Shown: positions 7,965 through 60,560 of the stretch, one piece after another
How the letters are laid out: each line of letters starts with the position of its first letter
Numbering within the stretch: position 1 is the first letter of the stretch
Assembly: GCA_003058495.1 (NCBI GenBank)
Contig: QBVC01000009.1
Span: forward strand, 1 to 64,000
Direction: 5' to 3'
DNA length: 64,000 nt
From: a gamma proteobacterium symbiont of Ctena orbiculata
GTDB taxonomy: Bacteria > Pseudomonadota > Gammaproteobacteria > Chromatiales > Chromatiaceae
Translations under genes and position numbers: made by a program
Notes under the pieces: generated by a model
Told to the model about the DNA's origin: nothing
Database searches by the model: none
What the model saw: only the letters and a program-made list of their open reading frames with translations

Positions 7965-8999
<1,035 letters not shown>

Positions 9000-9198
9000 T
9001 CATTCCCCCATTTGAAATTCTATAGACACTTGACGAGTCGCCCGGTATACACTTTAGCGATGTTCAGCGAAGATGGCACTAACCTATCCTTAGATTTGCA
9101 CTTTTCATAGCTATCGTCCCAAAAATAGATAAGTTTAGCCGTGTTGCGGGTAAAATTTAACTTGAAATGACACTGACCAGACCTCACTTTGCAGGATA

Positions 9199-9933
9199 GT
9201 GCGGCGATCAACAGACCCATCAAGTGTGACAGATCCTAACCTGACCAGGCTTCAACAGCGCTACCAGCGCGTACTGAACCGCATACGACAAGCGGAAGCG
9301 GCATGCAATCGCCCGCCCGGCGGCGTGAGGTTGCTCGCTGTCAGCAAGACCAAGAGCATGGAGGAGATCGCCGCGCTGGCCGACCTCGGACAGGGCGATT
9401 TCGGCGAGAACTATCTCCAGGAGGCGTTGCAGAAGATCGACCGCCTGCGCGACAGAGGATTGGAGTGGCACTTCATCGGCCGCATCCAAAGCAACAAGAC
9501 CCGGCCGATTGCGGAGAACTTCCATTGGGTCCACAGCCTGGCGAGTCTCAAGCATGCCGCCCGATTGAGTGATCAGCGCCCCCCCGGTCTGCCGCCGTTG
9601 AATGTCTGTCTGCAGGTCAACACCAGTGGCGAGGCGAGCAAGGATGGTTATCGCGAGGAGGCGTTGCGCGAGGAGTTCGAGGCCTATACCAGGTTGCCCA
9701 ATCTGAGGATTCGCGGATTGATGACGATCCCGGCGCCCGCCGCGGGGGAAACCGCTCAACATCGACCCTTCGAGCGGTTAAGATTGCTGCGTGATGAGCT
9801 GATGCGCGCGGAGACGCCGCTGGATACCCTCTCCATGGGGATGTCGGAGGATCTCGAGGCCGCCATCGCGGAGGGCGCCACGATCATCAGAATCGGCACC
9901 GCAATTTTCGGCCCGCGACAGTATAATCAATGA
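9199..9933 (+). CDS. yggS: YggS family pyridoxal-5'-phosphate homeostasis protein
   Basis: A PLP-binding, alanine-racemase-fold protein that maintains vitamin B6 and amino-acid balance but has no known catalysis. 'RLLAVSKTKS' contains the PLP lysine; 'FGENYLQEALQK', 'WHFIGRIQSNK' and 'LSMGMSEDLEAAI' are family signatures, and the C-terminal 'TIIRIGTAIFGPR' is intact. The start is uncertain: GTG at 9199 or GTG at 9226 (235 aa, closer to usual length). It leads a plus-strand run with proC, yggT and yggU. Confidence 0.95.
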   Translation: MRRSTDPSSVTDPNLTRLQQRYQRVLNRIRQAEAACNRPPGGVRLLAVSKTKSMEEIAALADLGQGDFGENYLQEALQKIDRLRDRGLEWHFIGRIQSNKTRPIAENFHWVHSLASLKHAARLSDQRPPGLPPLNVCLQVNTSGEASKDGYREEALREEFEAYTRLPNLRIRGLMTIPAPAAGETAQHRPFERLRLLRDELMRAETPLDTLSMGMSEDLEAAIAEGATIIRIGTAIFGPRQYNQ

Positions 9934-9963
9934 GGTTTGCACCCATCCAAGGTAAGCTAGGGC

Positions 9964-10791
9964 ATGAGTAACAATAACATTACGTTCATCGGTGGCGGCA
10001 ACATGGCCACCAGCCTGATAAGCGGCTTGATCGCCGACGGTTATGACAAGGCGAGCATCACGGTCAGCGATCCGGACACCGACAAGCTGGCTAATCTGGC
10101 CGCCCGCTGCGGCGTGCACACCCAGACCGACAACAGCACCGCAATCAGTGGTGCCGATGTGGTGGTGCTGGCCATCAAACCCCAGGTGCTCAAGCAGGTG
10201 GCGCAGGCGTTGGCGCCAAGCATACAGCAGGCAAGGCCGCTGGTGATCTCCATCGTTGCCGGGGTCAGGGAGTCTGCCCTGCAGGAGTGGCTGGGCGGCG
10301 GTGTGGCCCTGGTGCGCAGCATGCCGAACACCCCGGCGATGATTCAGTCCGGGGCCTCGGGCCTGCATGCCGGTTCCGCGGTTACCGAATCGCAGCGCAG
10401 CCAGGCCGAAAGCATACTGCGGGCCGTGGGCGTGACCCGCTGGGTCGAGAATGAGTCTCAGATGGATGCGGTGACAGCCGTCTCCGGCAGCGGACCCGCC
10501 TACTTCTTTCTCGTCATGGAGGCGATCGAGACATCCGCCCGGCAGATGGGGCTGGATGACGATACCGCCCGTCTGCTGACCCTGCAGACCGCCCTCGGCG
10601 CCGCCCGCATGGCACTGGAGAGCAGTGACTCCCCCGCGCTGCTCAGAGAGAAGGTCACATCCCCCGGCGGCACCACGGAACGGGCCCTTGGGATCCTTGA
10701 AGCGGGTGATATCCGGACCCTCTTCGACAAGGCCCTGCAGGGCGCCATGGAGCGTTCCATCGAACTTTCCGAGATGCTGGGAGAGCGATAA
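9964..10791 (+). CDS. proC: Pyrroline-5-carboxylate reductase
   Basis: Catalyses the last step of proline synthesis, NAD(P)H-dependent reduction of 1-pyrroline-5-carboxylate. The N-terminal Rossmann motif is 'FIGGGNMATSLISGL'; 'VVLAIKPQVL' and 'RSMPNTPAMIQSGASGL' follow, and the C-terminal dimer domain holds 'AVSGSGPAYFF' and 'VTSPGGTTERALG'. Length 275 is typical. The stop codon overlaps the yggT start by one base (TAATG), indicating coupling. Confidence 0.97.
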   Translation: MSNNNITFIGGGNMATSLISGLIADGYDKASITVSDPDTDKLANLAARCGVHTQTDNSTAISGADVVVLAIKPQVLKQVAQALAPSIQQARPLVISIVAGVRESALQEWLGGGVALVRSMPNTPAMIQSGASGLHAGSAVTESQRSQAESILRAVGVTRWVENESQMDAVTAVSGSGPAYFFLVMEAIETSARQMGLDDDTARLLTLQTALGAARMALESSDSPALLREKVTSPGGTTERALGILEAGDIRTLFDKALQGAMERSIELSEMLGER

Positions 10792-11366
10792 TGGGCAGCA
10801 GCTACCTGACCAATCCCATCGTCTTTCTGGTACAGACCCTGTTCGGGCTCTATATCCTGGCGATACTGCTGCGCTTCCTGCTGCAGCTGGTGCGGGCCGA
10901 CTTCTACAATCCGATCTCCCAGTTTCTGGTGAAGGTGACCAATCCGCCGTTGAAACCGCTGCGGCGGATCATTCCCGGTTTCGGGGGCATCGATCTCTCC
11001 TCGCTGCTGCTTGCCTGGCTGCTCAAGGCGATCGAGCTGATGATCATCATCGCTATCGGCGGCGGCAGCATCAGCCTGATCGCCCCGTTCATATGGGCGA
11101 TACCGGAACTGGTGGAGCTGCTGATCAATATCTATCTCTTCGGGATCTTGATTCAGGTGATCCTCAGCTGGGTAAATCCCGGCAGCTACAACCCGGCGGT
11201 CGCACTGCTCTACAGTCTGACATCGCCCCTGCTCACCCCGGCACAGAAGATCCTTCCCCCGACGGGGGGCATCGATCTCTCCCCGATGCTGGTGATCATC
11301 GGCCTGATCCTGCTGAAGATGCTCTTGATTCCCCCCCTGCTGCAGATCACCGGCAGCCCTTTCTAG
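10791..11366 (+). CDS. yggT: YggT family inner-membrane protein
   Basis: A 191-residue protein with two tandem YggT units, each with hydrophobic helices and a 'NP(I/G)S..L..LT.P.L.P..+.LP..GGID.S' signature. The first is at 'NPISQFLVKVTNPPLKPLRR' and the second at 'YSLTSPLLTPAQKILPPTGG'. The YggT family is linked to osmotic or ionic stress tolerance; the mechanism is unknown. It overlaps proC by one base. Confidence 0.92.
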   Translation: MGSSYLTNPIVFLVQTLFGLYILAILLRFLLQLVRADFYNPISQFLVKVTNPPLKPLRRIIPGFGGIDLSSLLLAWLLKAIELMIIIAIGGGSISLIAPFIWAIPELVELLINIYLFGILIQVILSWVNPGSYNPAVALLYSLTSPLLTPAQKILPPTGGIDLSPMLVIIGLILLKMLLIPPLLQITGSPF

Positions 11367-11372
11367 GCCCTG

Positions 11373-11657
11373 GTGAATTGGTACCGCTGGGATCAGGACG
11401 ACCTGATCCTCAACCTGCGCATCCAGCCCAAGGCATCCAGGGATGCCTTTCTCGGCCCCTACGGCGAAAATGCCTATAAGGTCGCGATCGCGACACCCCC
11501 CGTCGACGGCAAGGCCAACGCCCGGCTGCTGAAGTTTATTGCCAAGGCCTTCGGCCTCCCCCTCTCCCAGGTCGAGCTTGTCTCCGGAAAAAGCTCTCGC
11601 AGTAAGCGTTTACGGTTAAAGTCCCCCCGGAAACTGCCGATAGAGTTTGAAAATTGA
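11373..11657 (+). CDS. yggU: DUF167 / YggU family protein
   Basis: A 94-residue DUF167 protein, starting at GTG 6 nt after yggT. Signatures are 'LNLRIQPKASRD', 'VAIATPPVDGKANARLLKF' and 'VELVSGKSSRSKRLRL'. The fold is a small alpha/beta domain of unknown role that is nearly always encoded with YggT. It closes the yggS-proC-yggT-yggU run. Confidence 0.92.
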   Translation: MNWYRWDQDDLILNLRIQPKASRDAFLGPYGENAYKVAIATPPVDGKANARLLKFIAKAFGLPLSQVELVSGKSSRSKRLRLKSPRKLPIEFEN

Positions 11658-11764
11658 GAGACCCGCGTATGGCGCCGAGGAGACTCCTCGCGTATCATTG
11701 CGGGAGCGCTGAAAACAAGAGTTAAGAGTCTGTTACGGCTAAAAAATATTTTTGGGGCAACGGC

Positions 11765-13741
11765 ATGGAAAAAGTAAGATTTGAAGAACAGTTACAGGCT
11801 TACGAACAGTGGAAAACGGATGTTATCAACACCATTGAGGAGTACGGCCCCTGGTTGGAGGAGAATGGAATGTCCTCGGCGGACATTCAACAGCGCATTG
11901 AACAGACCCTCACCACGCTCAAGGGCGACAAGCTGACCATCGCCTTTGTCGCCGAGTTTTCCCGCGGCAAGACCGAGCTGATCAACGCCATCTTCTTCGC
12001 CGACTACGGCAGGCGTCTGCTCCCCTCCGATGCCGGTCGCACCACCATGTGCCCCACCGAGATCTTCTACGACGATGTGCGCAACGAGGCCTATGTGCGT
12101 CTCCTGCCCATCGAGACGCGCCTGCAGGAGGCCACCCTGACCCAGTTGCGGCACGATACCAAGCAGTGGGTCCACTACCCCCTGGAGGTCGACTCGGTAG
12201 AGCAGATGCAGGCCGCCTTGAATGAGGTCGTGCAGACCAAAACCGTGCCGCTGGAGGATGCCAAGCATCTCGGTCTCTACAGCCAGGATCTGCATCCCCA
12301 TCAGGCAGAGCCGCCCGAAACCGTCGAGATACCCAAGTGGCGCCACGCCATGATCAGCTTCCCCCACGAGATGCTGAAAAAGGGCCTGATCATTCTCGAC
12401 ACGCCGGGACTGAACGCCTTGGGTTCGGAGCCCGAGCTGACCTTGAACATGCTGCCGACGGCCCAGGCGGTGTTGTTCGTGCTCGGCGCCGATACCGGTG
12501 TGACCCGCAGCGACATGGAGATCTGGCAGCATCATGTGAAGGGGTTTCAGAGCGGGCGCCAACGCGGCCTGATGGTCGTGCTGAACAAGATCGATACCCT
12601 GTGGGATGACCTGCGCGAGCACGAGGACATCCACGAGGCCATCAGCAATCAGCAGAGCTCCACCGCCGATATGCTCGGGGTGGAAGCCAAGGCGGTCTTT
12701 CCCATCTCCGCCCAGAAAGGTCTGCTGGCCAAGATCAAGAGTGAACCCGAACTGCTGGACAAGAGCGGCCTGCTGGACCTGGAGAACTACCTGGGTCAGG
12801 ACGTGGTCAACATCAAACAGCAGATCATTCTCGACACCATCAGCTCCGATGTCGGACAGATGCTGGACAACAGCCGCAGCATGCTGTCGGGCAAGCTGAA
12901 CGAGACCAAATACCAGCTCGAGGAGTTGGAGGAGCTGAGCGACAAGAGCGACGACGTCATCAACAACCTGATGGAGAAGACCCGCAGCGAACAGGCCCAG
13001 TACCTGCGCGATGTGGAGACCTTTCAGCAGAGCCGGAAACAGCTCAAGCAGCAGGCGGACATGTTGTCGGAGATCCTCAGCCTGAACCTGCTCGATGAGA
13101 CCATCAAGCGTTGCAGAAAGGAGATGACCAACAGCTGGACCACCAGCGGCATGAAGTCCTCGATGAAGAACCTGTTCGAGGAGACCCGCCGCACCATGCT
13201 CCAGGTGGTGAACCAGAGCGAACAGACGCGCAAGCTGATCCGCTCCATCTACCGCAAGTTTCAAAACGAGCACGGCTTCGCCGTGGTGCAGCCAAAGATG
13301 TTCTCGATCGTAAAGTACCGGGTCGAACTGGAACTGCTGCATCAGGAAGCGGAGATCTTCAGGAACAGCCCGGTTACCGCGATGATGGAGCAGAATTTCG
13401 TGGTCAAACGCTTCTTCTCGGCGCTGGTCAAGCGTGCCCGCGATATCTTCTTTCGCGCCGACAATGAGATCAATCAGTGGATAGTGAGCGCCCTTGAACC
13501 CCTGGTCATGCAGATCAAGGATCACAAGGAGATGATGGAGAAACGCCTCAACAACCTGCAGAAGATCGGTCAGTCGCGCAACACGCTGCAATACCGCATC
13601 CTTGAACTGCAGGAGCAGTATACCGAGTTGGCCCGGCAGCTGACCGCGCTGCGCAACATGTCCAACCGGATCAGCAACAACCGACCCTTGCATGGGAGCC
13701 AGCGTCAAAAGCCCAAGTTGGTGTCGCAGAATGTCTCCTGA
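11765..13741 (+). CDS. Dynamin-like large GTPase
   Basis: A 658-residue bacterial dynamin-family protein, probably membrane-associated. G1 is 'AEFSRGKTELINA' (residues 63-75; the usual first P-loop glycine is Ala63, but GKT is intact). A threonine candidate for G2 is in 'GRTTMCPTE', G3 is DTPGL at 212, and G4 is NKID at 274. Residues about 360-660 are helical with coiled-coil stretches (about 375-440 and 600-645). An amphipathic segment near 'NFVVKRFFSALVKRARDIFF' could be the membrane paddle. Bacterial dynamins remodel or repair membranes, often in stress or phage resistance. Unlike many, no second dynamin gene is adjacent. Confidence 0.85.
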   Translation: MEKVRFEEQLQAYEQWKTDVINTIEEYGPWLEENGMSSADIQQRIEQTLTTLKGDKLTIAFVAEFSRGKTELINAIFFADYGRRLLPSDAGRTTMCPTEIFYDDVRNEAYVRLLPIETRLQEATLTQLRHDTKQWVHYPLEVDSVEQMQAALNEVVQTKTVPLEDAKHLGLYSQDLHPHQAEPPETVEIPKWRHAMISFPHEMLKKGLIILDTPGLNALGSEPELTLNMLPTAQAVLFVLGADTGVTRSDMEIWQHHVKGFQSGRQRGLMVVLNKIDTLWDDLREHEDIHEAISNQQSSTADMLGVEAKAVFPISAQKGLLAKIKSEPELLDKSGLLDLENYLGQDVVNIKQQIILDTISSDVGQMLDNSRSMLSGKLNETKYQLEELEELSDKSDDVINNLMEKTRSEQAQYLRDVETFQQSRKQLKQQADMLSEILSLNLLDETIKRCRKEMTNSWTTSGMKSSMKNLFEETRRTMLQVVNQSEQTRKLIRSIYRKFQNEHGFAVVQPKMFSIVKYRVELELLHQEAEIFRNSPVTAMMEQNFVVKRFFSALVKRARDIFFRADNEINQWIVSALEPLVMQIKDHKEMMEKRLNNLQKIGQSRNTLQYRILELQEQYTELARQLTALRNMSNRISNNRPLHGSQRQKPKLVSQNVS

Positions 13742-14091
13742 GACAATATCGCGTCGGAAATATTAATTATTCGACTTTAGTATTGCGAGATAACCTGCTG
13801 TTTTCATTTATATATCAGTATTGGCCTTGAGCCTTTCTCCAGCGCTATTGCCGCGCCGGCTGCCGCTCTCCATTGGCGCATCCCGGTAATTGCCGGACCC
13901 TGTCGATGACCCGCCATGCAGGCAACGCCCTGAAACGAAATTTGATTTGTATCAAACAATAAGTGGTACTGACTTGCCCCCTTCTCCCCCGGGATTCAGC
14001 CACTTCACCCGACCCCGTTGATCGTCTACACTGAAACTACAACAAAGACCGGCCGTACAGACCGGCACCTGATATTAGGAGGGGTCACTCT
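13742..14091. other. Intergenic region with an FNR-like site
   Basis: This gene-free stretch separates the dynamin gene from the DUF4426 gene. Its main feature is the palindrome at 13942-13955. A strong ribosome site (aggagggg) lies at its end. Confidence 0.5.
13942..13955. promoter_or_regulatory. FNR/Anr-type binding site
   Basis: The sequence is ttgat-ttgt-atcaa, a perfect match to the FNR/Anr consensus TTGAT-N4-ATCAA. It is centred about 143 nt before the start of the DUF4426 gene, the only gene it could serve by orientation. No clear -10 hexamer lies at the spacing expected for class II activation, so the direction of control is unknown. Confidence 0.6.
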
Positions 14092-51932: not shown

Positions 51933-52454
51933 TCATACCAATCTCCAACGATTCAGCACCTGATAACGTGACCTGTGTGAATCCGCAGTTGCCGACGCGG
52001 CGAGGACAAATTCATTAACCCGCCAGGTTATCGGCGATGCCAATTGGGTGGTTATTGCCTTGCGCGCCTTTCTGTAGAGGGTGACATGGGGTTTGTAGCT
52101 GCGTCTCTCGGGTTCGAATCCGCAGCCCCGCAAGCCGTTGTTCAAATCAGCGACCAGTTGACCGAGTGCCTTCGGGGTCTCCTCCGGAGAGGCCCACAAT
52201 ATCCTCGGCCTCGGCCAGTAACCGGTGTGATCGATGGTCAAATCGAAGGGGGCCGATCGGATGCGATCGGCGACATCCTCGATACAGCGCCTTTGCGAGG
52301 GGGCTATTTGGCCGAGAAAGACCAGGGTCATGTGCAGGTCGTCCGCATGGTGGCGGCGCCCCTCCGCCAGCTCCACGCCATGTGCCAATGCACTCAATGC
52401 TTCCCGCACCTGTCGATCCGGCCATAGGGCAAAGAAAAAACGTCGGCCGCTCAC
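51933..52454 (-). CDS. thpR: RNA 2',3'-cyclic phosphodiesterase
   Basis: A 2H-phosphoesterase family protein that opens 2',3'-cyclic phosphates (LigT/ThpR). Both HxT motifs are present: 'LHMTLVFLG' and 'YKPHVTLYRKA'. The N-terminus 'RRFFFALWPDRQVREAL' is typical. GTG at 52454 (173 aa) with ggggg upstream is preferred; the frame is open to 52478 within pncC. It is the last gene of the ten-gene phosphoryl-transfer operon. Confidence 0.92.
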   Translation of the reverse strand: MSGRRFFFALWPDRQVREALSALAHGVELAEGRRHHADDLHMTLVFLGQIAPSQRRCIEDVADRIRSAPFDLTIDHTGYWPRPRILWASPEETPKALGQLVADLNNGLRGCGFEPERRSYKPHVTLYRKARKAITTQLASPITWRVNEFVLAASATADSHRSRYQVLNRWRLV

Positions 52455-52459
52455 GCTGT

Positions 52460-52990
52460 TTAGACCCCCAGGGAACAACCGGGAACCTGAGAATCATGCA
52501 ACAACCGTTCGAGTCGCACCAAGGCGTGCGCCACCGCCTGCCAGCGCACCTGGCCGCGATCGCCGCGGAAACGGACCCGGGTGGTCTCCGCGTCGCCGCC
52601 CTTGAACTGCCAGGAGAAGCAGACCGTACCCACCGGCTTCTCCACCGAACCCCCGCCGGGCCCGGCAATACCGCTGATGGCGATCGCGACGTCCGCGCCG
52701 CTCTCGTTCAAGGCACCCTGGGTCATTTCGATGACGCAGGCTTCACTCACGGCTCCCTGTTGCTCCAGGGTGGCGGGAGAGACGCCGAGCATCCTCTGTT
52801 TCGCCTGATTGCTGTAAGTCACAAAGCCGCGGTCGAACCAGTCGCTGCTGCCGGGGAGGTCGGTCAATACCTTGGCCAGCCAGCCGCCGGTGCAGGACTC
52901 GGCGACCACCAGACGATAGCCCTGACGACGCAAGGCATCGGCACAGCGCGCGCACTTCTCCTCGACAGCCTGTGGGGAGAGGTTCTCCAT
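52460..52990 (-). CDS. pncC: Nicotinamide-nucleotide amidohydrolase PncC (CinA C-terminal domain)
   Basis: A 176-residue stand-alone CinA-C enzyme that deamidates NMN to nicotinate mononucleotide in the pyridine-nucleotide salvage cycle. Motifs are 'VVAESCTGGWLAKVLTDLPG', 'GFVTYSNQAKQRMLGV' and 'ISGIAGPGGGSVEKPVGTV'. It is immediately downstream of the amphi-Trp gene with no gap. In many gammaproteobacteria pncC precedes recA, but not here. Confidence 0.95.
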   Translation of the reverse strand: MENLSPQAVEEKCARCADALRRQGYRLVVAESCTGGWLAKVLTDLPGSSDWFDRGFVTYSNQAKQRMLGVSPATLEQQGAVSEACVIEMTQGALNESGADVAIAISGIAGPGGGSVEKPVGTVCFSWQFKGGDAETTRVRFRGDRGQVRWQAVAHALVRLERLLHDSQVPGCSLGV

Positions 52991-53266
52991 CTACTTCACT
53001 TTCACCTTCAGGTTCTTGCTCTTTTTCTCCCGCTCCGCTTCGACCTGCCAGGTTATGCGCAGATTGATGCGATGCCGCTCCTCATCCTGGGTGGCGGCGA
53101 CCTTCAGCTGCAGCAGTCCATCCGGCTGCATCACCATCTCTCCATCCTCATCGCTCAGGGTCAGGCGGCCCTTGGCGATGCCTTGAGAGATCGCTTTCAA
53201 AAGTGCCTGAATCGAGTCCCGATCCTGCAGTGATTCATGACGAAAGTTTTTTTTGCCCTGTCTCAT
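52991..53266 (-). CDS. Amphi-Trp domain protein
   Basis: A 91-residue protein with 'ESLQDRDSIQALLKAISQGI', 'KGRLTLSDEDGEMVMQPDGL' and 'DEERHRINLRITWQ', which closely matches the amphi-Trp domain (TIGR04354), named for an amphipathic strand with Trp. From memory this family is one of the proteins listed in the GAK system with HprK-related kinase B and a special ATP-grasp enzyme, both encoded in this operon. The function is unknown. A basic Lys-rich tail ends the protein. Confidence 0.85.
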   Translation of the reverse strand: MRQGKKNFRHESLQDRDSIQALLKAISQGIAKGRLTLSDEDGEMVMQPDGLLQLKVAATQDEERHRINLRITWQVEAEREKKSKNLKVKVK

Positions 53267-53322
53267 ATCTGTTTCCCGAAGTGGATCGAGTTAATGACAA
53301 CCTCCGGTCGTTCAGTGGCTGG

Positions 53323-54672
53323 CTAAAGGAACGACTTCTGGTCGAACACCTTGATATGGGGGTAGTCGGTACTGATCCCCATGATGAGGCGTTTCGGGTG
53401 GACGATGGTCACCGCGGCGCCCTCGCCTTTCAATCCCTCTTTTTTGCGGCTGTTGCGGTCGATGGTAGCATCACACTGAAAATGGATCATACCCTTGCGC
53501 AGCATGATGCGCTGTCCGTGATAGCAGTTGGCATGGCCGTGAATAATGGCGTGGATATCCGCGCTATGCATCAATCCAACACCCTTGCGGGTCAGCGGCA
53601 TATCCACGTCACGGTACTTGGTGCGAATCAGGTTGGCCATCGGGCCGTAGTAAAACTCGAAGATCTCATCATCGATGCTCTCCTTGAACTCCTTGTTGAG
53701 ATAGTCAACGCCCTTGCGGTTGATCAGTTTCGCCATCCTGTCATCGACGCCGGCATGCACAAAGAGAAATGTACCTTTGCGATAGGCGAGCTTCATGCGC
53801 TTGAAGAACCAACTGAACTCCCCGCCCGGGGTAAGAAAAAGCTGCTGCCATTTCATCACCGCCGCATAGACATGACGCAGTGTGAGACCGGCCGCCGCAC
53901 AGTCCGATTCGAAACTCTCGATCTTCTCCCTGAGGCGCCTCAATTCACGGGCCATGCGTTTTTCCGGCATCACCCAGTCCGCCATTTTGGGGAACTCCTT
54001 GAACCAGCTTTTGGGCGGATAGAGTATGCGCCTGCAGTTGCGGCTTGGCGGCACGCCCTTTAACGCGTTCTCGCCATGGAGATACTCGTCGACTATCTCG
54101 CGCAGCATGGGTATCACCTTGCTGCCCATGCGGATAAAGAAGTGATCGTGGCGAGGATCGGGATCCATCCCCACCGAAGCGATGCCCAGCTTGACCCGGA
54201 TATCGTGGTTGCCCGCGAGCAGCACCACCTTCGCTCCCTGCTTCTTAAGCAGATGGATCACGCGCAACAGCCTCAGGTTGCTGGGCCCCTTATCGAAGCA
54301 ATCCCCTCCGATAACGAAAGTGGCCGCTTTACCGCTGGAGGTAAGCTTCAGGTCAGTCTCTTTTTTACCGTTCTTACTGACCCCGCCGGAGGCGATGAGC
54401 GAAGTGATAAAGGCATCCGCATCGGCATGCAGATCGGAGAAAAAGTAGTGTTTCCGCTTCGGCCATTGCCACTCATCCCGGTTCACCGCTTCGGTCAACA
54501 GACTCACCGTCGAACAGCGCTGCCCCCGCTCCTTGACCACCGACCGCTGCTTGCCCAGATGCCAGGGTTCGCCGGTCGTCGGCAATTCGACCCCGAGCCA
54601 CTTCAGCCCCTTGTAAGTCGGCAGGTATCTCTCCAGGCGTCTGTTGTTGACGGGTTTAATCGACAAGTTCAT
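53323..54672 (-). CDS. Metallophosphoesterase of the kinase/phosphatase operon
   Basis: A 449-residue calcineurin-like phosphoesterase. Metal-binding motifs are 'FFSDLHADADAF' (D-x-H), 'GGDCFDKGPSNLRLL' (GD.x.D.G), 'VLLAGNHDIRVKLG' (GNHD), 'FLFVHAGVDD' and 'AIIHGHANCYHG' (GH). This pattern is of the Ser/Thr phosphatase or ApaH type rather than a nuclease. An insert of about 120 helical, basic residues separates the third and fourth motifs. The first 85 residues have no motif. It overlaps the upstream histidine phosphatase by 17 nt. The substrate is unknown. Confidence 0.85.
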   Translation of the reverse strand: MNLSIKPVNNRRLERYLPTYKGLKWLGVELPTTGEPWHLGKQRSVVKERGQRCSTVSLLTEAVNRDEWQWPKRKHYFFSDLHADADAFITSLIASGGVSKNGKKETDLKLTSSGKAATFVIGGDCFDKGPSNLRLLRVIHLLKKQGAKVVLLAGNHDIRVKLGIASVGMDPDPRHDHFFIRMGSKVIPMLREIVDEYLHGENALKGVPPSRNCRRILYPPKSWFKEFPKMADWVMPEKRMARELRRLREKIESFESDCAAAGLTLRHVYAAVMKWQQLFLTPGGEFSWFFKRMKLAYRKGTFLFVHAGVDDRMAKLINRKGVDYLNKEFKESIDDEIFEFYYGPMANLIRTKYRDVDMPLTRKGVGLMHSADIHAIIHGHANCYHGQRIMLRKGMIHFQCDATIDRNSRKKEGLKGEGAAVTIVHPKRLIMGISTDYPHIKVFDQKSFL

Positions 54673-55360
54673 CCCCTTCGGAACGGTGCTTCCACTCCCC
54701 GGTCAGATGGCGCCAGCTGCCCTCGGGCAGACGCTCGAGGAAGACCGGCCGGCAGTGGTACATGCTCAACGCGGCTATCTGCTCGAAGGCCAATACCCCG
54801 AGATGGTAAGCGGCGTGACGAAAGGCGGCGCCGTGGCCGACAAACAGCTTGACGCTGTCCACCGCCACCCGGGACTGCAGCTCCACGAGCCGTCGTTCAA
54901 GATGTTCGGCCACCCGTTCCCCCGCCTCCATCAGCGACTCCGCTCCCTGCAGCGGCAACCGGTAGTAGCTGTCGGATTTCCAGCCCGTCGGTGGTGGGGT
55001 GAATCGCGGGTCGTCATGGAGTATCGATTCGACCTGCTTGAGGGTCAGATTTGCCGCCGAGCCCAGTGAACGCTCCGCCAGGGCGTCGAACGATTCGATG
55101 CCCATTTTCTGCCGGCTGCCGATCTGCATACCCTGCCGCATCACCTCGGCTGTCTGCCAGCCGCGTAGCAGGCGCGAGCTGTCGATCACCGGATAGAGTG
55201 ACCAGTCGAACATCTTCAGGGTGCCCTGTATCAGGCTCACCGAACGTTCCGCCTGCTGCTCCCCGGTAGCGGTCAGGGGGAAGGGCTGCAGGGCGCTTGG
55301 GGTATCGGGCAGTTGATGATACTCGCCATGGCGCAACAGGGCGGCGATCACTCTAGCCAT
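54656..55360 (-). CDS. Histidine phosphatase family protein
   Basis: A 234-residue branch-1 phosphoglycerate-mutase-like phosphatase. The RHG phospho-His motif is 'ALLRHGEYHQL'; the conserved second His is in 'KLFVGHGAAFRHAAYH'. 'SSRLLRGWQTAEVM' supplies the usual Arg. It lies between the SixA-Nudix fusion and the metallophosphoesterase. The substrate may be a phosphoprotein or a small phospho-metabolite. Confidence 0.85.
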   Translation of the reverse strand: MARVIAALLRHGEYHQLPDTPSALQPFPLTATGEQQAERSVSLIQGTLKMFDWSLYPVIDSSRLLRGWQTAEVMRQGMQIGSRQKMGIESFDALAERSLGSAANLTLKQVESILHDDPRFTPPPTGWKSDSYYRLPLQGAESLMEAGERVAEHLERRLVELQSRVAVDSVKLFVGHGAAFRHAAYHLGVLAFEQIAALSMYHCRPVFLERLPEGSWRHLTGEWKHRSEGDELVD

Positions 55361-55418
55361 GAGCTGTAGCCATCCTGTACGGGGATTGCCGAATGATAAA
55401 AACCATGCAGATGACGGC

Positions 55419-56384
55419 CTAACCCTTGAGATGCTTGGCCAGGGCCTGGATCATCGGTTTCAATTCAGCCTGCTTGACCCGTTTTATCGCCTGTTTCGGC
55501 GAGAGCCACTCGCGACCGCGATGGTTCTCCTCCCACTCCTTTTCCGACAGTTCGCGGGTCACCCGCATGGGGAAGACATCCACCGTGCACTCGGCGCCCC
55601 ATTTCTCGTAGCTGTAGCTGCCGATAGGCTCTTCGGCGACCTCCCCCTCGATCCCCGCCTCTTCGAGGGCCTCCTTTGCCGCCGACTCCTGCAGGCTGAG
55701 GGCGGGTTCGCTGATCCCCTTCGGCAGCACCCAGTGCTTGCGCTTGCTCGACATCACCACCATGATTTCGACCTTGTCATCGACGACACGATAGGGAATC
55801 ACCGAGGATTGCTTATAGTAGTAGGCCGGCCGATCCCGCATCTCGGTGCCATGCTCATCGGGATAGGGAAATTTCTTATCCATGCTGCTGGGGCGGACGA
55901 TGGAGAGCAGCTTGCCGTCACCGGCCTTCAGGTCGCTCCAGTCATCCGGCATTTCGATCAGCACCAGGGTGGCGGTGGGAATCAACTTGCCATCGCTCGG
56001 CAGGGGGATGCGCTCCCCCTCGAGGAACTCGGCCAGCAGCTCCAGGCCGGGATTGTGCCCCACCAGCATGACCCGGCTGCGGTCGGCGGGGACTTCGCCA
56101 AGCACCTGCAGCAACTCCTCCACGTTGGCGGCATAGACTCGACGCTCCTCCTTGATCGCCTGGGCATCGCCACCCATCGCCTTGATCGTCTTCTGTGCCG
56201 TGACGATGGCGCGTTCCGCCGGCGAACTGATGACATAATCGGGTTGCAGCCGCTGCTGCAGCAGCCAGACGCCCATACGCTGGGCGCCGCGCTTGCCCCG
56301 ATCCTTGAGCGGACGCTTGAAATCCTCTACCTGCTGACTCCAATCGGACTTTCCATGTCTGAGCAACATCAATTCTCTGGTCAT
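55419..56384 (-). CDS. SixA-type phosphohistidine phosphatase fused to a Nudix hydrolase
   Basis: A 321-residue two-domain protein. The N-terminal part (1-about 170) is a SixA-like domain: 'LMLLRHGKSDW', 'SPAERAIVTAQ' and 'VMLVGHNPGLELLAEFL'. The C-terminal part (about 185-321) is a Nudix domain: 'HWVLPKGISEPALSLQE' then 'SAAKEALEEAGIEG', with the E-E of the Nudix box present and the usual Arg replaced by Lys. Such Nudix domains resemble diphosphoinositol-polyphosphate or diadenosine-polyphosphate hydrolases. The fusion joins two hydrolases of phospho-compounds in one polypeptide. Confidence 0.87.
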   Translation of the reverse strand: MTRELMLLRHGKSDWSQQVEDFKRPLKDRGKRGAQRMGVWLLQQRLQPDYVISSPAERAIVTAQKTIKAMGGDAQAIKEERRVYAANVEELLQVLGEVPADRSRVMLVGHNPGLELLAEFLEGERIPLPSDGKLIPTATLVLIEMPDDWSDLKAGDGKLLSIVRPSSMDKKFPYPDEHGTEMRDRPAYYYKQSSVIPYRVVDDKVEIMVVMSSKRKHWVLPKGISEPALSLQESAAKEALEEAGIEGEVAEEPIGSYSYEKWGAECTVDVFPMRVTRELSEKEWEENHRGREWLSPKQAIKRVKQAELKPMIQALAKHLKG

Positions 56385-56434
56385 TGTCTGTTTGCCTCAT
56401 ACATTATTGACTTTGCGGAGCATCGACGCGCCAG

Positions 56435-57553
56435 TCAGCTACCCCACTGTTCCAAACACAATCCGCTCAATTCGTTGAAATCCATTCTACCCGTGACCTC
56501 GTAGACAGGAACACTCTTCAACAGGGCCAGATAGGGTGCAGGCTGCAGCGGTTCGTCATCCCGCAGGAAATCTCCGAGCCCGTCCTGATAGAAGGGCCCG
56601 GGGGATTTCATCACCGCGCTCAGCAACTCGCCGCGCTGGGCAATCGCAATCTTCGCCAGCCTCACCGGCGAGGGATCATGCCTGTTCCAGTTGAGGATCA
56701 CCAGGGCCTCCAGGGGAACGGGCGTCGAGGTGTCGATGCGATCCGGGCCGTAGAGCCGCTCCACATCGACGTCGAACTTCTCCTCAAGCTCCCACAGCGC
56801 CTGTTTCGGCAGCTGCAACAGCCGTTCCCGCCTCTCCTCATCGATCAGCGGCGAGAGCCGCGGATTGTTCACCAGGGTCCCGGGATTGATGCGAGGAAGC
56901 TTGGGAATCCCCACTGCCTCCACCCCGACCCCCTGGCGGCGCAGAAAGAGCCTGTCATTGGTCAGGTAGCGGCTCTCCGGCTGTTCCATCAGATGCAGCA
57001 TCAGGGTCGACTTGCCGCCCCCGGAAAAACCGGCCAGGGCAATTCCCTTTCCGTTCAGCAGCAGGCCGGCGGCGTGACAGATCAGCCACTGCCGCTGCTG
57101 CAGCCAGTTCATCACCTGGGAATTGATGAAATTGATCAGCTGGTTGTCATGGGCGATGCAGGGACCCGCCGCGATGCGCCACCGCTCGCTCTGCAGAAAC
57201 AGCATCCCGGTGCGCACCTTGCGCACCAGACGGCCGTCCGCCAGGTCGACATAGGCATCCTTTCGCCCCGATTTGCCCGCTTCCCGTCGCCAGTCGATGA
57301 AAGGGAGACCGGTCTTGAGTTCCCCGCCCTCGATGGCGACGACCTCGATCGGCGCCGCTATCTGACTTTTCGGCAGATGGTGAAAATAGCCCGCCAGCCG
57401 ATCCAGCAGCGGCTGGCTGTTGGAGCGAATCACCAGACCACAGTCACCTGTCGCCAGCTGCAGGGAGCGCTCAGCCAGGGAGATCCCCTGCATGAGCAGA
57501 CCGGCGGCATGCCCGGCATCCAGGATCCCGGTCCATTTCTCCACCATGTTCAC
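56435..57553 (-). CDS. HprK-related kinase B
   Basis: A 372-residue protein resembling the P-loop kinase domain of HPr kinase. Walker A is 'ALAGFSGGGKSTLML' (Lys181). The preceding 'QWLICHAAGLLLNGKGIALA' is the usual HprK-type strand, and 'ESRYLTNDRLFLRR' corresponds to the Asp-containing loop. The long N-terminal half differs from true HprK, and no HPr or PTS gene is present. It fits, from memory, TIGR04355 of the GAK system. The start is GTG overlapping the ATP-grasp stop (GTGA); ATG 57547 is an alternative. Confidence 0.85.
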   Translation of the reverse strand: MNMVEKWTGILDAGHAAGLLMQGISLAERSLQLATGDCGLVIRSNSQPLLDRLAGYFHHLPKSQIAAPIEVVAIEGGELKTGLPFIDWRREAGKSGRKDAYVDLADGRLVRKVRTGMLFLQSERWRIAAGPCIAHDNQLINFINSQVMNWLQQRQWLICHAAGLLLNGKGIALAGFSGGGKSTLMLHLMEQPESRYLTNDRLFLRRQGVGVEAVGIPKLPRINPGTLVNNPRLSPLIDEERRERLLQLPKQALWELEEKFDVDVERLYGPDRIDTSTPVPLEALVILNWNRHDPSPVRLAKIAIAQRGELLSAVMKSPGPFYQDGLGDFLRDDEPLQPAPYLALLKSVPVYEVTGRMDFNELSGLCLEQWGS

Positions 57554-58440
57554 CCTGCGAGCTCCTCCAGGATGTAGGCCACATAGCGGGAGGGTACGTC
57601 GATGCCGATCCCCTCCTTCGCGCCGCGAAAACCGCCGAATGCCGAGACCTCGAAGACCACCGGCCCCTGCTCGGTCTCCGCCACGTCCACGGTGGTGAAG
57701 TCGAGGCCGAAGATCCCCTGGGCCTTGCGCGCCAGGATCACCAGATCCGCATCGGCCGCATGGCCCTCGTAACGACCGCCGCTGCGGATGGTGGTGTTCC
57801 AGGCCCCCGATCCGCCAACCCGGGCGTAACTGCCGAGATAGTCGCCGTCGAGAAAGACCATCCCCAGATCCCTCCCCGGCAGCTCGAGCCGCTGCTGGAT
57901 ATACATCACAGGGTTGTCGGCGCGAAATGCCTCGATCTGATCACGCAACCGCTGCGGATCCTGATCGGCATCGATCACCGTCATGCCCCGGGCCTTGGTG
58001 GAGTAGAGCGGCTTGAACACCGCCGAGCCGAATGCCCGGACCGCATCGGCGGCAATGTCGGGATTCTCGGTGACCCGGGTCGGCGGCAGGGGAATCCCTG
58101 CATTGTAGAGCGAGAGGGTACAGCTGAGCCTGTCGATGAGGCGGATGATCCGCTCCACCTTGCTGAAGACCCTCACCCCGGCGCGCTGCAGCTGGCGCAG
58201 CATCTCCAGCCTGTCGAGGACCCGGGGGCTGTACTCCTCGCTGATCTTTTTCACCACCAGGGCATCGAGTTGGGTCAAATCCTGGTCGCGATAGCGGAGT
58301 TGGCCGCTGTCGAGCTCGGCGCAGACCTCGGTCATATCGATTACCAGACGAAAGCCGGTGGCAGCCTCCACCGCGTCGGCCAGGGCCTCGGTGGACCACT
58401 TTCCGGGGATGCCGACCACTCCGATCTTCGGTTTATCCAA
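57550..58440 (-). CDS. ATP-grasp enzyme of the GAK type
   Basis: A 296-residue ATP-grasp protein of the RimK/GshB group, starting at TTG (overlap of 8 nt with the preceding gene). 'KIGVVGIPGKWSTEALADAV' opens the N-lobe; 'SAVFKPLYSTKARGMTVI' is the ATP-binding Lys region; 'MYIQQRLELPGRDLGMVFLD' and 'VFEVSAFGGFRGAKEGIGID' contain the acidic metal ligands and final Asn/Ser region. It ligates an amine or amino acid to an acyl-phosphate intermediate in related enzymes; the substrate is unknown. It fits, from memory, TIGR04356. Confidence 0.85.
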   Translation of the reverse strand: MDKPKIGVVGIPGKWSTEALADAVEAATGFRLVIDMTEVCAELDSGQLRYRDQDLTQLDALVVKKISEEYSPRVLDRLEMLRQLQRAGVRVFSKVERIIRLIDRLSCTLSLYNAGIPLPPTRVTENPDIAADAVRAFGSAVFKPLYSTKARGMTVIDADQDPQRLRDQIEAFRADNPVMYIQQRLELPGRDLGMVFLDGDYLGSYARVGGSGAWNTTIRSGGRYEGHAADADLVILARKAQGIFGLDFTTVDVAETEQGPVVFEVSAFGGFRGAKEGIGIDVPSRYVAYILEELAG

Positions 58441-60070
58441 TGAATATCTCCTTCACGGGTACAACAAAAGGACGCTTGGATTTGGCTTCGCTCTCGAGCA
58501 GCCTCTCCATCAGGTAGGTCGCCCGGGAAAACATACGTTCCGACAGGGACTTGTCGAGAATGAACCGGGTCGAGGTGGCAAAGGAGCGGATCAGGCCCAT
58601 CGCCAGACGGATCTCGAAGCCCTCATCCCCCTGCCTGCGGGCAAAGGCGCCGGCGAAGCGATAGAAGGCGCGGCAGAGATCCATGATCCGCTGCCTGACC
58701 CGGGGATCGAAGACCTGCAGGCGGTAGTTGGAGACCAGGAAGACGCTGACGTCCTGCAGGTAGTCCATGTAGGTGGAGCGATGGAGATCGATGAAATTTA
58801 TCCGCTTCTCCGCGGCATCGTAGATGATGTTGTCGACATTGAAATCCCCATGGATATAGACCGAAAACGGTGCCTTGACCCCCTTCTCGAATCCCTGCAT
58901 GCGCTGCAGCAGCTCATCGAATGCAGCCAGCCTCACCCCACCGATCCCGACCGCGGGCTGCCTGAACTCGGGATGGATGGCATAGACATCCTCCATGCGC
59001 TTCGCCAGCTGCCGCATATAGCCGGCGGAGACCGGTTTCTTGGTCTTTGTCTCCAGCCAGACCCGGCTCAGGGTCCCGGTGAGACGGTCCAGTGCATCCT
59101 GCAGCAGCTCATCGGAACCGTGCAGCAGGATCTGCTCGATGGTCTGGCCGGCGAGGTGTTCGATCAGCAGCGCCGCCGAGTCCCCCCGTTTCTGATAGGC
59201 GAGTATCTTCGGCGCCAGGCCGGGAAAGATCTCGTGCCAATCCTCGACCCGCGCCCGCTCCTCCTTCAGTTTGCGCTTGCGCCCATCCTTGAAGATGGCG
59301 TGGTAGCCACTCCCCTCCTTGCCGCTGCTGAGGGCATTGATGGCGCTGCCCGACCTGGTCTCAGCGATGGGTTCGAACTCCAGCTTGTCGATATCGTCCA
59401 CCGTCTTCAGTTCACCCAGCGAGGCATTGAAGGTGTGGTAGCGCTCGGTATTGAAATGCTGGCCCATGGAGGCGGAGATGATCGCCTCGCTGATGCGCAG
59501 CATGGCATCGCCCATCTGCTCGATGAGATGGGCCAGCATGATCAGGGAGACGCGGTCCGCCGGGTGTTTCTCCTTTTTCAACAGCCTGGTGTAGCGCTTG
59601 AGCTGTTTCTGATAGGCGCTGTCGAGACGCCGTTCCACCCGCCCGATCTTCAAGGCGCGCCGGGTATCCTTCGCCGACAACGCCGGTTCGATCAGCTCCA
59701 GCCCGTTGCTCACCTGATCGATCATGGTCAGATAATCCTTCACCTTCAGCATCGCCCGGTGCTGCAGATGGACACTCTGCATCACCGCATCCCGGCTCAA
59801 CTCGGCGATCCGTTCCAGCTGGCTGGCGATCCCCTCCACCGCGCGCAGCAGTTGGTGGTCCGATTCCCGACCCTCGGGCGAGGCCATCTGCTGCATGCAG
59901 TGGTTGTGGATGCTCAGTTTCAGATTCTCCACGTAGCCCTGGCGGTCGAGCAGGCGGGTAGGAATGGTCGCCTTGGGCAGGATCAGATACTCTTTCAGCA
60001 GGGAGAGATGGGTCGCGGTTTCAGTCAACAGGAAGTGGAGGTTCTCCCGGATGCTCTTGGCGAGGGGCAT
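58433..60070 (-). CDS. PhoU-like domain fused to APH-type kinase
   Basis: A 545-residue protein. Residues about 70-225 are all-helical and PhoU-like ('AVEGIASQLERIAELSRDAV', 'LAHLIEQMGDAMLRISEAI'). Residues about 240-545 form an aminoglycoside-phosphotransferase/ChoK-like kinase: 'AALLIEHLAGQTIEQIL', the Brenner motif 'YIHGDFNVDNIIYD' (H-x-D-x4-N), and the metal Asp in 'INFIDLHRSTYMDYLQDVSV'. PhoU domains usually sense phosphate transport or bind metal clusters; joining one to a small-molecule kinase is unusual. It is translationally coupled to the ATP-grasp gene. Confidence 0.82.
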   Translation of the reverse strand: MPLAKSIRENLHFLLTETATHLSLLKEYLILPKATIPTRLLDRQGYVENLKLSIHNHCMQQMASPEGRESDHQLLRAVEGIASQLERIAELSRDAVMQSVHLQHRAMLKVKDYLTMIDQVSNGLELIEPALSAKDTRRALKIGRVERRLDSAYQKQLKRYTRLLKKEKHPADRVSLIMLAHLIEQMGDAMLRISEAIISASMGQHFNTERYHTFNASLGELKTVDDIDKLEFEPIAETRSGSAINALSSGKEGSGYHAIFKDGRKRKLKEERARVEDWHEIFPGLAPKILAYQKRGDSAALLIEHLAGQTIEQILLHGSDELLQDALDRLTGTLSRVWLETKTKKPVSAGYMRQLAKRMEDVYAIHPEFRQPAVGIGGVRLAAFDELLQRMQGFEKGVKAPFSVYIHGDFNVDNIIYDAAEKRINFIDLHRSTYMDYLQDVSVFLVSNYRLQVFDPRVRQRIMDLCRAFYRFAGAFARRQGDEGFEIRLAMGLIRSFATSTRFILDKSLSERMFSRATYLMERLLESEAKSKRPFVVPVKEIFIG

Positions 60071-60071
60071 A

Positions 60072-60560
60072 TCAGTCGATCACTCCCAGATAGACCGGAG
60101 GCGTGACATCGCCGAGCCTGGAGAGGTGGGTGGCGAGACCCTTGGGATAGACCTCATAGTCGAGGATATGGTCGATCGGCAACCAGACCACATCGATCTG
60201 ATGCTTGTCGGGATGCCCCCCCGACACAGGTCGGTACTCCGCCGGCAGCGAACAGGCGAAATGCAACTCCACCAGATGCCTCACAGAGGGGTAGCCGGTA
60301 TCGCGCTGTTTGTAGAAGTCTGCGATCCAGAGCAGGCCGTCGATCTCGACCCTGGCGCCGATCTCCTCCTCGCACTCCCGCTGCAACGCCTCGGCCAGGG
60401 TTTCGTGGACATCCTGCCCACCGCCCGGGAGGGTATACCAGGTGCCGCGATGCTCCGCCCACTTCTTCTGCATCAACACCGCGTCGTCGCGAACGATCAC
60501 CGCGCGCACCGCATTGCGGATATTGGGTTCGAGCCCTTCAGGTTGTGGTCGGTCGTTCAT
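60072..60560 (-). CDS. Nudix hydrolase
   Basis: A 162-residue stand-alone Nudix protein. The box is complete: 'GGGQDVHETLAEALQRECEE' then 'EIG' (G-x5-E-x7-REUxEExG). 'WYTLPGGG' precedes it. The substrate (a nucleoside diphosphate linked to X, or a sugar nucleotide) is unknown. It is the first gene of the ten-gene operon, with a 1-nt gap to the PhoU-APH gene and 151 nt behind dgkA. Confidence 0.92.
   Translation of the reverse strand: MNDRPQPEGLEPNIRNAVRAVIVRDDAVLMQKKWAEHRGTWYTLPGGGQDVHETLAEALQRECEEEIGARVEIDGLLWIADFYKQRDTGYPSVRHLVELHFACSLPAEYRPVSGGHPDKHQIDVVWLPIDHILDYEVYPKGLATHLSRLGDVTPPVYLGVID

Follow-up and report, generated by a model that had tools for sequence, protein, structure and literature searches.

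A conserved eight-gene cassette around the GAK kinase and ATP-grasp proteins points to an uncharacterised phosphate-handling or phosphate-signalling system

Our subject is a run of minus-strand genes in the genome (G000; 4.5 Mb in 51 contigs) of a gammaproteobacterial symbiont of Ctena orbiculata. The window, as we call the whole stretch of DNA that was analysed, covers the opening 64 kb of contig C11 in this genome. Eight of the genes, from 60560 down to 52991, form a cassette that recurs in largely fixed order in many genera and has at its centre three members of the GAK families of NCBIfam: the ATP-grasp protein, the HprK-related kinase B and the small protein amphi-Trp. Because this cassette is kept together in many marine bacteria and some copies lie beside phosphate or polyphosphate genes, it suggests an uncharacterised system for phosphate handling or phosphate signalling.

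A preliminary description of the window had listed ten minus-strand genes here, in the order of transcription Nudix, PhoU-APH, ATP-grasp, kinase B, SixA-Nudix, histidine phosphatase, metallophosphoesterase, amphi-Trp, PncC and ThpR. All ten open reading frames (ORFs) were located, running from 60560 to 51933 with junction gaps of 0 to 58 nucleotides (nt) or overlaps of 4 to 19 nt, and Pfam and NCBIfam scans upheld the domain calls for every gene. The assignment to GAK also stands, as ATP-grasp, kinase B and amphi-Trp score far above their NCBIfam cut-offs. By these profiles the proteins can be placed with confidence in the named GAK families, and four of the five defining proteins are found in the genome.

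Conservation of the eight-gene unit

An ATP-grasp alignment, from which the frame-broken L013 (when read in one frame) was removed, was scanned against the GTDB species genomes and gave at least 493 relatives. The best 80 loci were read; close relatives are over-represented among them and many of the loci are interrupted by contig ends. The conservation of residues and motifs given further below was judged without four duplicates of named loci (L012, L015, L016 and L020) and without proteins of 80% or less of the length of the window protein, and the longest piece was taken for split genes.

The order that recurs in these loci is Nudix (NudA), PhoU-APH, ATP-grasp, kinase B, SixA-Nudix, histidine phosphatase (HisP), metallophosphoesterase (MPE) and amphi-Trp. 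ATP-grasp is found in all 80, PhoU-APH in 79, kinase B in 74, HisP in 69, SixA-Nudix in 68, MPE in 62, amphi-Trp in 59 and NudA in 55; a CofD-like gene is present in 30, and PncC and ThpR in 15 each. Taken down the cassette, the successive pairs adjoin in 51/55, 77/79 (PhoU-APH and ATP-grasp), 71/74, 66/67, 56/63, 61/62 and 55/57 loci, and the median junctions between them lie between -8 and +22 nt, tight or overlapping as in a translationally coupled operon. When only the 48 loci with enough flank are counted, PhoU-APH is present in 48, kinase B in 47, HisP and MPE in 46 each, amphi-Trp in 45, SixA-Nudix in 44 and NudA in 35, and all eight genes in 33. The co-occurrence of the phosphatases with the PhoU-APH fusion, raised as a question in the preliminary description, is therefore seen in nearly all of these loci, and it holds in the 38 loci outside L028-L042 (HisP 36/38, MPE 36/38, PhoU-APH 38/38). 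Because the same order recurs in many genera, the clustering of the eight genes is far beyond chance, and the conserved neighbourhood that the description relied upon is there.

The extent of the unit is smaller than had been described. PncC and ThpR are accessory, and each of their 15 occurrences falls within L028-L043, which come from Ca. Thiodiazotropha-type lucinid symbionts together with L038, labelled Chromatiales, and L043, a gammaproteobacterium. In the window these lineage-specific tail genes are a PncC-type nicotinamide-nucleotide amidase (52460..52990; PF02464, CinA/PncC, 193.2 bits) and the RNA 2',3'-cyclic phosphodiesterase ThpR (51933..52478; TIGR02258, 120.4 bits, cut-off 65.7).

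Some copies depart from the common order. The cassette is rearranged in L014, L065, L071, L093 and L096, and in L101 (Methylomonas) and its relative L070 only PhoU-APH and ATP-grasp lie in the vicinity. In L077, from the Lamellibrachia barhami endosymbiont, PhoU-APH and SixA-Nudix are two ORFs each (8363-14011) and its close relatives L073, L087 and L095 have one each.

Hosts of the cassette include Halomonas, Onishia, Thalassospira, Marinobacterium, Marinobacter, Roseibium, Enterovibrio and two planctomycetes. In a sample of 369 genomes of the class, 12 have a kinase B above its cut-off, and among 119 genomes of the phylum to which the Stieleria genome (L053) belongs ATP-grasp is found in 2, the L053 genome included. 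Additionally, ATP-grasp matches at E 1e-60 on five plasmid records (three of Tritonibacter, one of Qingshengfaniella and one of Pseudooceanicola); the two records that were opened, both Rhodobacterales, carry the cassette without SixA-Nudix. This rarity and patchiness, taken with the plasmid copies, suggests that the cassette has spread laterally.

A phosphate-linked reading of the cassette

We propose that the eight genes, together with an unlinked gene for a YvcK-like 'CofD' protein, make up one system, an extended form of GAK. In it, a single, strongly anionic substrate would be charged with phosphate groups and discharged again, in a cycle linked to the phosphate or polyphosphate status of the cell. 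Charging would use ATP and would be done by kinase B, the PhoU-APH kinase and the RimK-like ATP-grasp protein. Discharging would be shared between the two Nudix domains, which would cleave phosphoanhydrides, and SixA, the second histidine phosphatase and the metallophosphoesterase, which would take off phosphomonoesters, while the PhoU domain, the YvcK-like protein and amphi-Trp may be regulators or carriers. All the individual reactions of this cycle, a substrate common to them and the way in which control runs are what we infer, and we hold a phosphate-linked phosphoryl-transfer cycle on a polyanion as a tentative reading, rated somewhat short of even.

What the analysis shows is gene content and order kept over the best 80 loci, conserved motifs, predicted folds for two of the proteins and, for some copies, a position near phosphate and polyphosphate genes. 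The reading is drawn from this conservation and from the linkage to genes for Na/Pi (sodium/phosphate) cotransporters, CHAD and PPK1, with PstS, PiT and PhoU genes in some flanks. It draws further on the enrichment of CHAD in kinase-B genomes (of 369 class genomes 120 have CHAD, among them 11 of the 12 with kinase B against 109 of the 357 others; Fisher P 2.7e-5), on a second kinase B gene of one genome (G153) that sits with CHAD, Nudix and histidine phosphatase genes, and on the Nudix half of SixA-Nudix, which is nearest to Ndx1 and DIPP1. CHAD domains bind polyphosphate (PMC6537752).

Flank families were obtained by clustering, and one member of each was checked with Pfam; the recurrent ones are Na/Pi cotransporter, CYTH-CHAD, PPK1, PstS, PiT and PhoU. 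Linkage was counted in 50 of the 65 loci L043-L107, leaving out near-duplicates (L064, L067, L087 and L095) and mostly short loci (L044, L046, L047, L056, L060, L063, L074, L076, L078, L079 and L082), of which L078, L087 and L095 do carry a Na/Pi gene. Within the 50 loci we found the Na/Pi cotransporter 9 times, CYTH-CHAD 9 times and PPK1 5 times, against 0.21, 0.15 and 0.12 expected from genome-wide density, where PPK1 is taken as 45 copies after removing two partial rows of 47 and the Na/Pi copy number of 75 was estimated by eye. Genome-wide, CHAD is present in 45, PPK1 in 44 and Na/Pi in 38 of the 50 genomes. Since related loci are not independent, an ATP-grasp tree was made, on which it takes 8 changes to account for the 14 linked loci, and well supported branches force at least 5 of these. 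The label is clustered on this tree (shuffled mean 12.5 changes; 3 of 500 shuffles as low as 8). The cassettes of L049, L054, L092, L093 and L094 lie inside polyphosphate islands, and the flank of L094 has a DUF47-like gene, named by eye. In G290, NudA and a CofD-like gene lie near CHAD.

Several observations weigh against the phosphate-linked reading. The linked loci comprise one large gammaproteobacterial clade plus Pirellulaceae, one Thiotrichaceae and Enterovibrio, and 36 of the 50 loci have no CHAD, PPK1 or Na/Pi gene within 10 kb or to the contig end. The genome studied here does have CHAD and PPK1, and these lie on contigs (C34 and C31) separate from that of the cassette (C11). The enrichment of CHAD in kinase-B genomes comes from a test uncorrected for genome size and relatedness. 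Among invariant residues, lysine and arginine outnumber aspartate and glutamate in kinase B (12:6), SixA-Nudix (10:3) and HisP (9:4), a weak hint of a polyanion substrate; this lean is absent in NudA, PhoU-APH, ATP-grasp, MPE and the CofD-like protein, and the measure is a poor guide because CHAD, a known polyphosphate binder, itself scores even (24:21). Finally, when upstream regions were scored for a pattern that we take to be the Pho-box consensus, sites with at least 11 of 14 matches were found in 10 of 71 cassette upstreams versus 20 of 261 other genes (P 0.08), with nominal enrichment at 10 matches (30 vs 72, P 0.014) and at 12 (4 vs 2, P 0.02); the upstream region of the window's own cassette scores 9 of 14. 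Membership in the Pho regulon is not used as support here, as an apparent enrichment over random locus segments was not clear against the upstream regions of other genes.

Nudix, PhoU-APH and phosphatase genes

The first gene of the cassette, NudA, encodes a predicted Nudix hydrolase with a full Nudix box (60072..60560; PF00293, 60.8 bits). It is followed by the fusion of a PhoU domain with an APH-type kinase (58433..60070; PF01895 38.7 and PF01636 42.3 bits), in which the catalytic motifs HGDFNxDN and DLHRS are conserved. Downstream of the two central enzymes, SixA-Nudix joins a SixA-type histidine phosphatase to a DIPP/Ndx1-like Nudix domain (55419..56384; SixA 50.7 bits, below the family cut-off of 74.5, and NUDIX 32.6 bits). 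HisP (54656..55360; PF00300, His_Phos_1, 43.9 bits) retains the RHG and GHG motifs, and MPE (53323..54672; PF00149, 31.7 bits) is calcineurin-like, with DxH, GDxxDKG and GNHD motifs. The Nudix boxes, the APH motif HGDFNxDN and the three MPE motifs are near-universal across the rows, and the SixA RHG of SixA-Nudix keeps its first His in 65 and its second in 62 of 68 rows.

The best PDB matches of SixA-Nudix are SixA 2rfl (E 3.9e-11), Ndx1 1vc8 (E 3.6e-7) and DIPP1 9t4k (E 1.3e-6), which by sequence places its Nudix half nearest to Ndx1, presumably an Ap6A-type hydrolase, and DIPP1. A sequence search of the PDB at E 0.1 returned no relative of MPE. Neither a PPK nor a Ppx domain was found among the cassette proteins in the Pfam and NCBIfam scans.

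Kinase B and the ATP-grasp protein

Kinase B (56435..57553; TIGR04355, 326.5 bits, cut-off 200) carries the P-loop GxSGGGKS, His160 and Asp200. As a single sequence it matched only ABC transporter and antibody chains in the PDB (E 0.67 or higher), and as a profile ABC transporters came out best, with HprK at E 0.085. Because these searches gave only weak or ABC-transporter matches, a comparison of folds was needed. The predicted structure is confident (predicted local distance difference test, pLDDT, 94.4) and its best Foldseek match is PEPCK (E 1.9e-8; template modelling score 0.50 over the query), so that kinase B is predicted to fold like PEPCK, in a PEPCK/HprK-type fold. The same genome holds a canonical HPr(Ser) kinase/phosphorylase (G000:C15, L157 1178-2116; 282.8 bits, cut-off 240) and kinase B is therefore an additional, separate relative. 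The two have the His, the P-loop Lys and Asp200 in common, and kinase B has Asn199 where HprK has its first Asp. A second kinase B (339.7 bits) lies outside the usual cassette in L017 (G153:C152, 216-6534) and sits with CYTH-CHAD, an extra Nudix gene, an extra histidine phosphatase gene and a gene that by eye encodes a CBS-type membrane protein.

The ATP-grasp protein (57550..58440; TIGR04356, 427.5 bits, cut-off 300) is nearest to RimK- and LysX-type ligases, its profile finding RimK 5zct at E 1.4e-18. Ser266 (in FEVSAFGGF), conserved among relatives, replaces a RimK Asn that we take to bind Mg. None of its 10 PDB matches at E 1e-4, compared by sequence only, bears a PPIP5K- or ITPK-type name; they are RimK/LysX-type or glutamate ligases, apart from one titled putative acetylornithine deacetylase, which we believe to be ArgX. 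This likeness to RimK speaks against a direct inositol kinase of the PPIP5K or ITPK type. The preliminary description had suggested a reversible phosphorylation circuit or the turnover of a phosphorylated metabolite. This general idea fits and gains from the linkage of some copies to Na/Pi, CHAD and PPK1 genes, and inositol polyphosphate, dinucleoside polyphosphate (ApnA) and polyphosphate all stay candidate substrates.

The CofD-like partner

The CofD-like member of GAK had been reported as not seen. It is present in the genome, on another contig (G000:C8:75194-76294; TIGR04357, 540.9 bits, cut-off 340). All 30 of its copies in the best 80 loci are divergent from the cassette and upstream of it; in L014 and L132 it lies downstream of amphi-Trp on the same strand. 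At E 1e-60 the protein is found in 8 of 369 class genomes, above the cut-off in 7 and below it in G218. Seven of these 8 are among the 12 genomes with kinase B (Fisher P 3.6e-11), and in the eighth, G196, cassette fragments adjoin the CofD-like gene. In the same scan the other five kinase-B genomes gave no CofD-like protein.

Outside its own family the protein is nearest to the YvcK/GlmR profile TIGR01826 (117 bits, under the cut-off of 196). Its five PDB relatives at E 0.01 (best E 4.9e-20) are uncharacterised proteins, two of them named UPF0052, a name that we take to stand for YvcK-type proteins. The copy of this genome has no match to the F420 CofD profile TIGR01819 at E 0.001, and of four CofD-like copies scanned with it only that of L014 matches, at 22 bits (cut-off 257). 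From these profile comparisons the 'CofD-like' partner appears to be YvcK-like rather than F420-type. Synthesis of an F420-like cofactor by CofD with a CofF-like ligase was considered and dropped for this reason.

Around the CofD-like gene (L025, G000:C8, 239-1768 and 9114-11747) there is a Ppx/GppA gene about 7 kb away and an adjoining ORF that matches models of both a fatty-acid desaturase and an ISL3 transposase. The remaining member, XXXCH (TIGR04358), which we believe belongs to the GAK system, gave no match in this genome; control genomes gave none either, so its absence is unproven.

The amphi-Trp protein

Amphi-Trp (52991..53266; TIGR04354, 69.5 bits, cut-off 31) has 91 amino acids, an FxHxSxQ motif that includes Ser12, and a basic tail. 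Its model has one helix and four strands (pLDDT 85.7) and matches no solved-structure fold at E 0.001. The protein occurs in 21 of 398 genomes of a phylum sample, 13 with the cassette (G000 and G365 counted) and 8 without. Ser12 is present in 66/66 cassette-linked rows of the first locus set. The phylum sample has 11 linked copies, L133 (a repeat of L061) included, and nine of them have Ser12; FxHxS is found in 0/9 sequences without the cassette, one of these 9 being below the family cut-off. The two other linked copies, L134 and L137 from a single genus, carry Ala in place of Ser12, although His160, the P-loop Lys and Asp200 are all conserved in their kinase B; kinase B of L137 also has Ala for the P-loop Ser177. 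We have dropped Ser12 as an obligatory phospho-acceptor on account of these two copies.

A Lys-x-Leu-x-Val type motif was seen by eye near the end of many copies, in the C-terminal tail (53020-52994, low model confidence), and could be a docking or modification site. Among copies without the cassette, that of L142 (G493:C445, 73-4691) lies between heparinase-like and Ppx/GppA-type phosphatase genes, and those of L144 (10008-10331) and L148 (7614-7946) are directly 3' of a gpsA-like gene, named by eye.

Discussion

The main rival to the phosphate-linked cycle is a protein switch like that of HprK, Crh or HPr, and YvcK, in which kinase B would phosphorylate or polyphosphorylate Ser12 of amphi-Trp, the hydrolases would reverse this, and phospho-amphi-Trp would steer metabolism together with the YvcK-like protein. 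The residues shared by kinase B and this genome's own canonical HprK speak for such a switch, as do the confinement of the Ser12 motif to cassette-linked amphi-Trp and the nearness of the CofD-like protein to YvcK. B. subtilis has an operon yvcI-yvcJ-glmR(yvcK)-yvcL-crh-yvcN (PMC6171935), HprK/P is described as a free-phosphate sensor (PMC8004850) and HPr-kinase homologues place several phosphates on one peptide Ser (PMC8498205), all of which we count in its favour. However, the two copies with Ala for Ser12, Asn199 in kinase B and the lack of an HPr fold in the amphi-Trp model count against it, and we consider the switch possible but doubtful.

Like the HprK, Crh and YvcK system of Bacillus, the cassette and its unlinked partner have an HprK-type kinase, a small protein of about 90 amino acids, a YvcK-type protein and a Nudix gene, if YvcI is, as we assume, a Nudix protein and Crh has about 85 amino acids. 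Amphi-Trp differs in finding no HPr-fold match, its helix and four strands being set apart from what we take to be the HPr topology. Kinase B resembles HprK by sequence only around the P-loop and by fold is best matched by PEPCK, the CofD-like protein stays below the cut-off of the YvcK family proper (117 vs 196), and PhoU-APH and ATP-grasp have no counterpart there.

An unlikely alternative is the turnover of a phosphorylated small metabolite, such as a nucleotide polyphosphate or a phosphorylated inositol or sugar, unrelated to phosphate homeostasis, to which the RimK-like enzyme would add an amino acid. Ap6A- and DIPP-type hydrolases as nearest relatives of the Nudix half of SixA-Nudix agree with this, as do RimK- and LysX-type ligases as those of ATP-grasp, but the repeated linkage to phosphate and polyphosphate genes is left unexplained and no inositol-synthesis gene was apparent by eye among the recurrent flank families, only some of which were scanned. 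It is very improbable that the phosphatases gather around the three named GAK genes only by chance or as housekeeping genes, for although PncC and ThpR do behave in this manner, HisP, MPE and PhoU-APH are kept in 46, 46 and 48 of the 48 loci with enough flank.

Returning to the phosphate-linked cycle, a more specific version can be put forward, which we regard as rather improbable. Kinase B and PhoU-APH would build a phosphoanhydride carrier, either polyphosphorylated amphi-Trp or a diphosphorylated small molecule, that the DIPP-like Nudix domain and SixA would read down, tuning polyphosphate storage and the uptake of inorganic phosphate. This would be an undescribed form of phosphate-status signalling and a counterpart of the eukaryotic inositol pyrophosphates. 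In eukaryotes PPIP5K combines an ATP-grasp with a histidine phosphatase domain, and DIPP is a Nudix enzyme. The cassette contains all three of these folds, and one of its Nudix domains resembles DIPP; it differs in that its ATP-grasp protein is of RimK type and no inositol enzyme was seen in the cassette.

Compared with the NCBIfam GAK families (TIGR04354-TIGR04358), the cassette has ATP-grasp, kinase B and amphi-Trp in one operon and CofD_rel_GAK in the genome. It differs in that the unit, in this genome as in most of the best 80 loci, further includes PhoU-APH, SixA-Nudix, HisP and MPE (NudA in 55/80); other differences are that the CofD-like gene is unlinked here and that XXXCH was not found here or in the control genomes. 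Some cassettes lie within polyphosphate islands of PPK1, CYTH-CHAD and Na/Pi cotransporter genes; unlike these, the cassette showed neither a PPK nor a Ppx domain in the scans, and the majority of the copies examined are unlinked to them. Public annotation already names single GAK genes. Our literature searches, whose coverage leaves out most subscription journals, found no description of the GAK system, amphi-Trp or HprK-related kinase, and of the papers listed for a wider search nearly all matched the heme-type string XXXCH and were judged unrelated by title. As far as these searches reach, the eight-gene extent, the YvcK-like 'CofD' partner and the link to polyphosphate and inorganic phosphate are not in print.

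The GAK families thus have names but no function in the literature that was searched. Placing GAK at the centre of an eight-gene cassette of largely fixed order, with some copies in phosphate or polyphosphate islands, turns a set of hypothetical equivalogs into a testable hypothesis, and cultured relatives that carry the cassette are found in Thalassospira, Halomonas and Marinobacterium. If the reading is true, marine bacteria and animal symbionts would have an additional phosphate-linked phosphoryl-transfer system.

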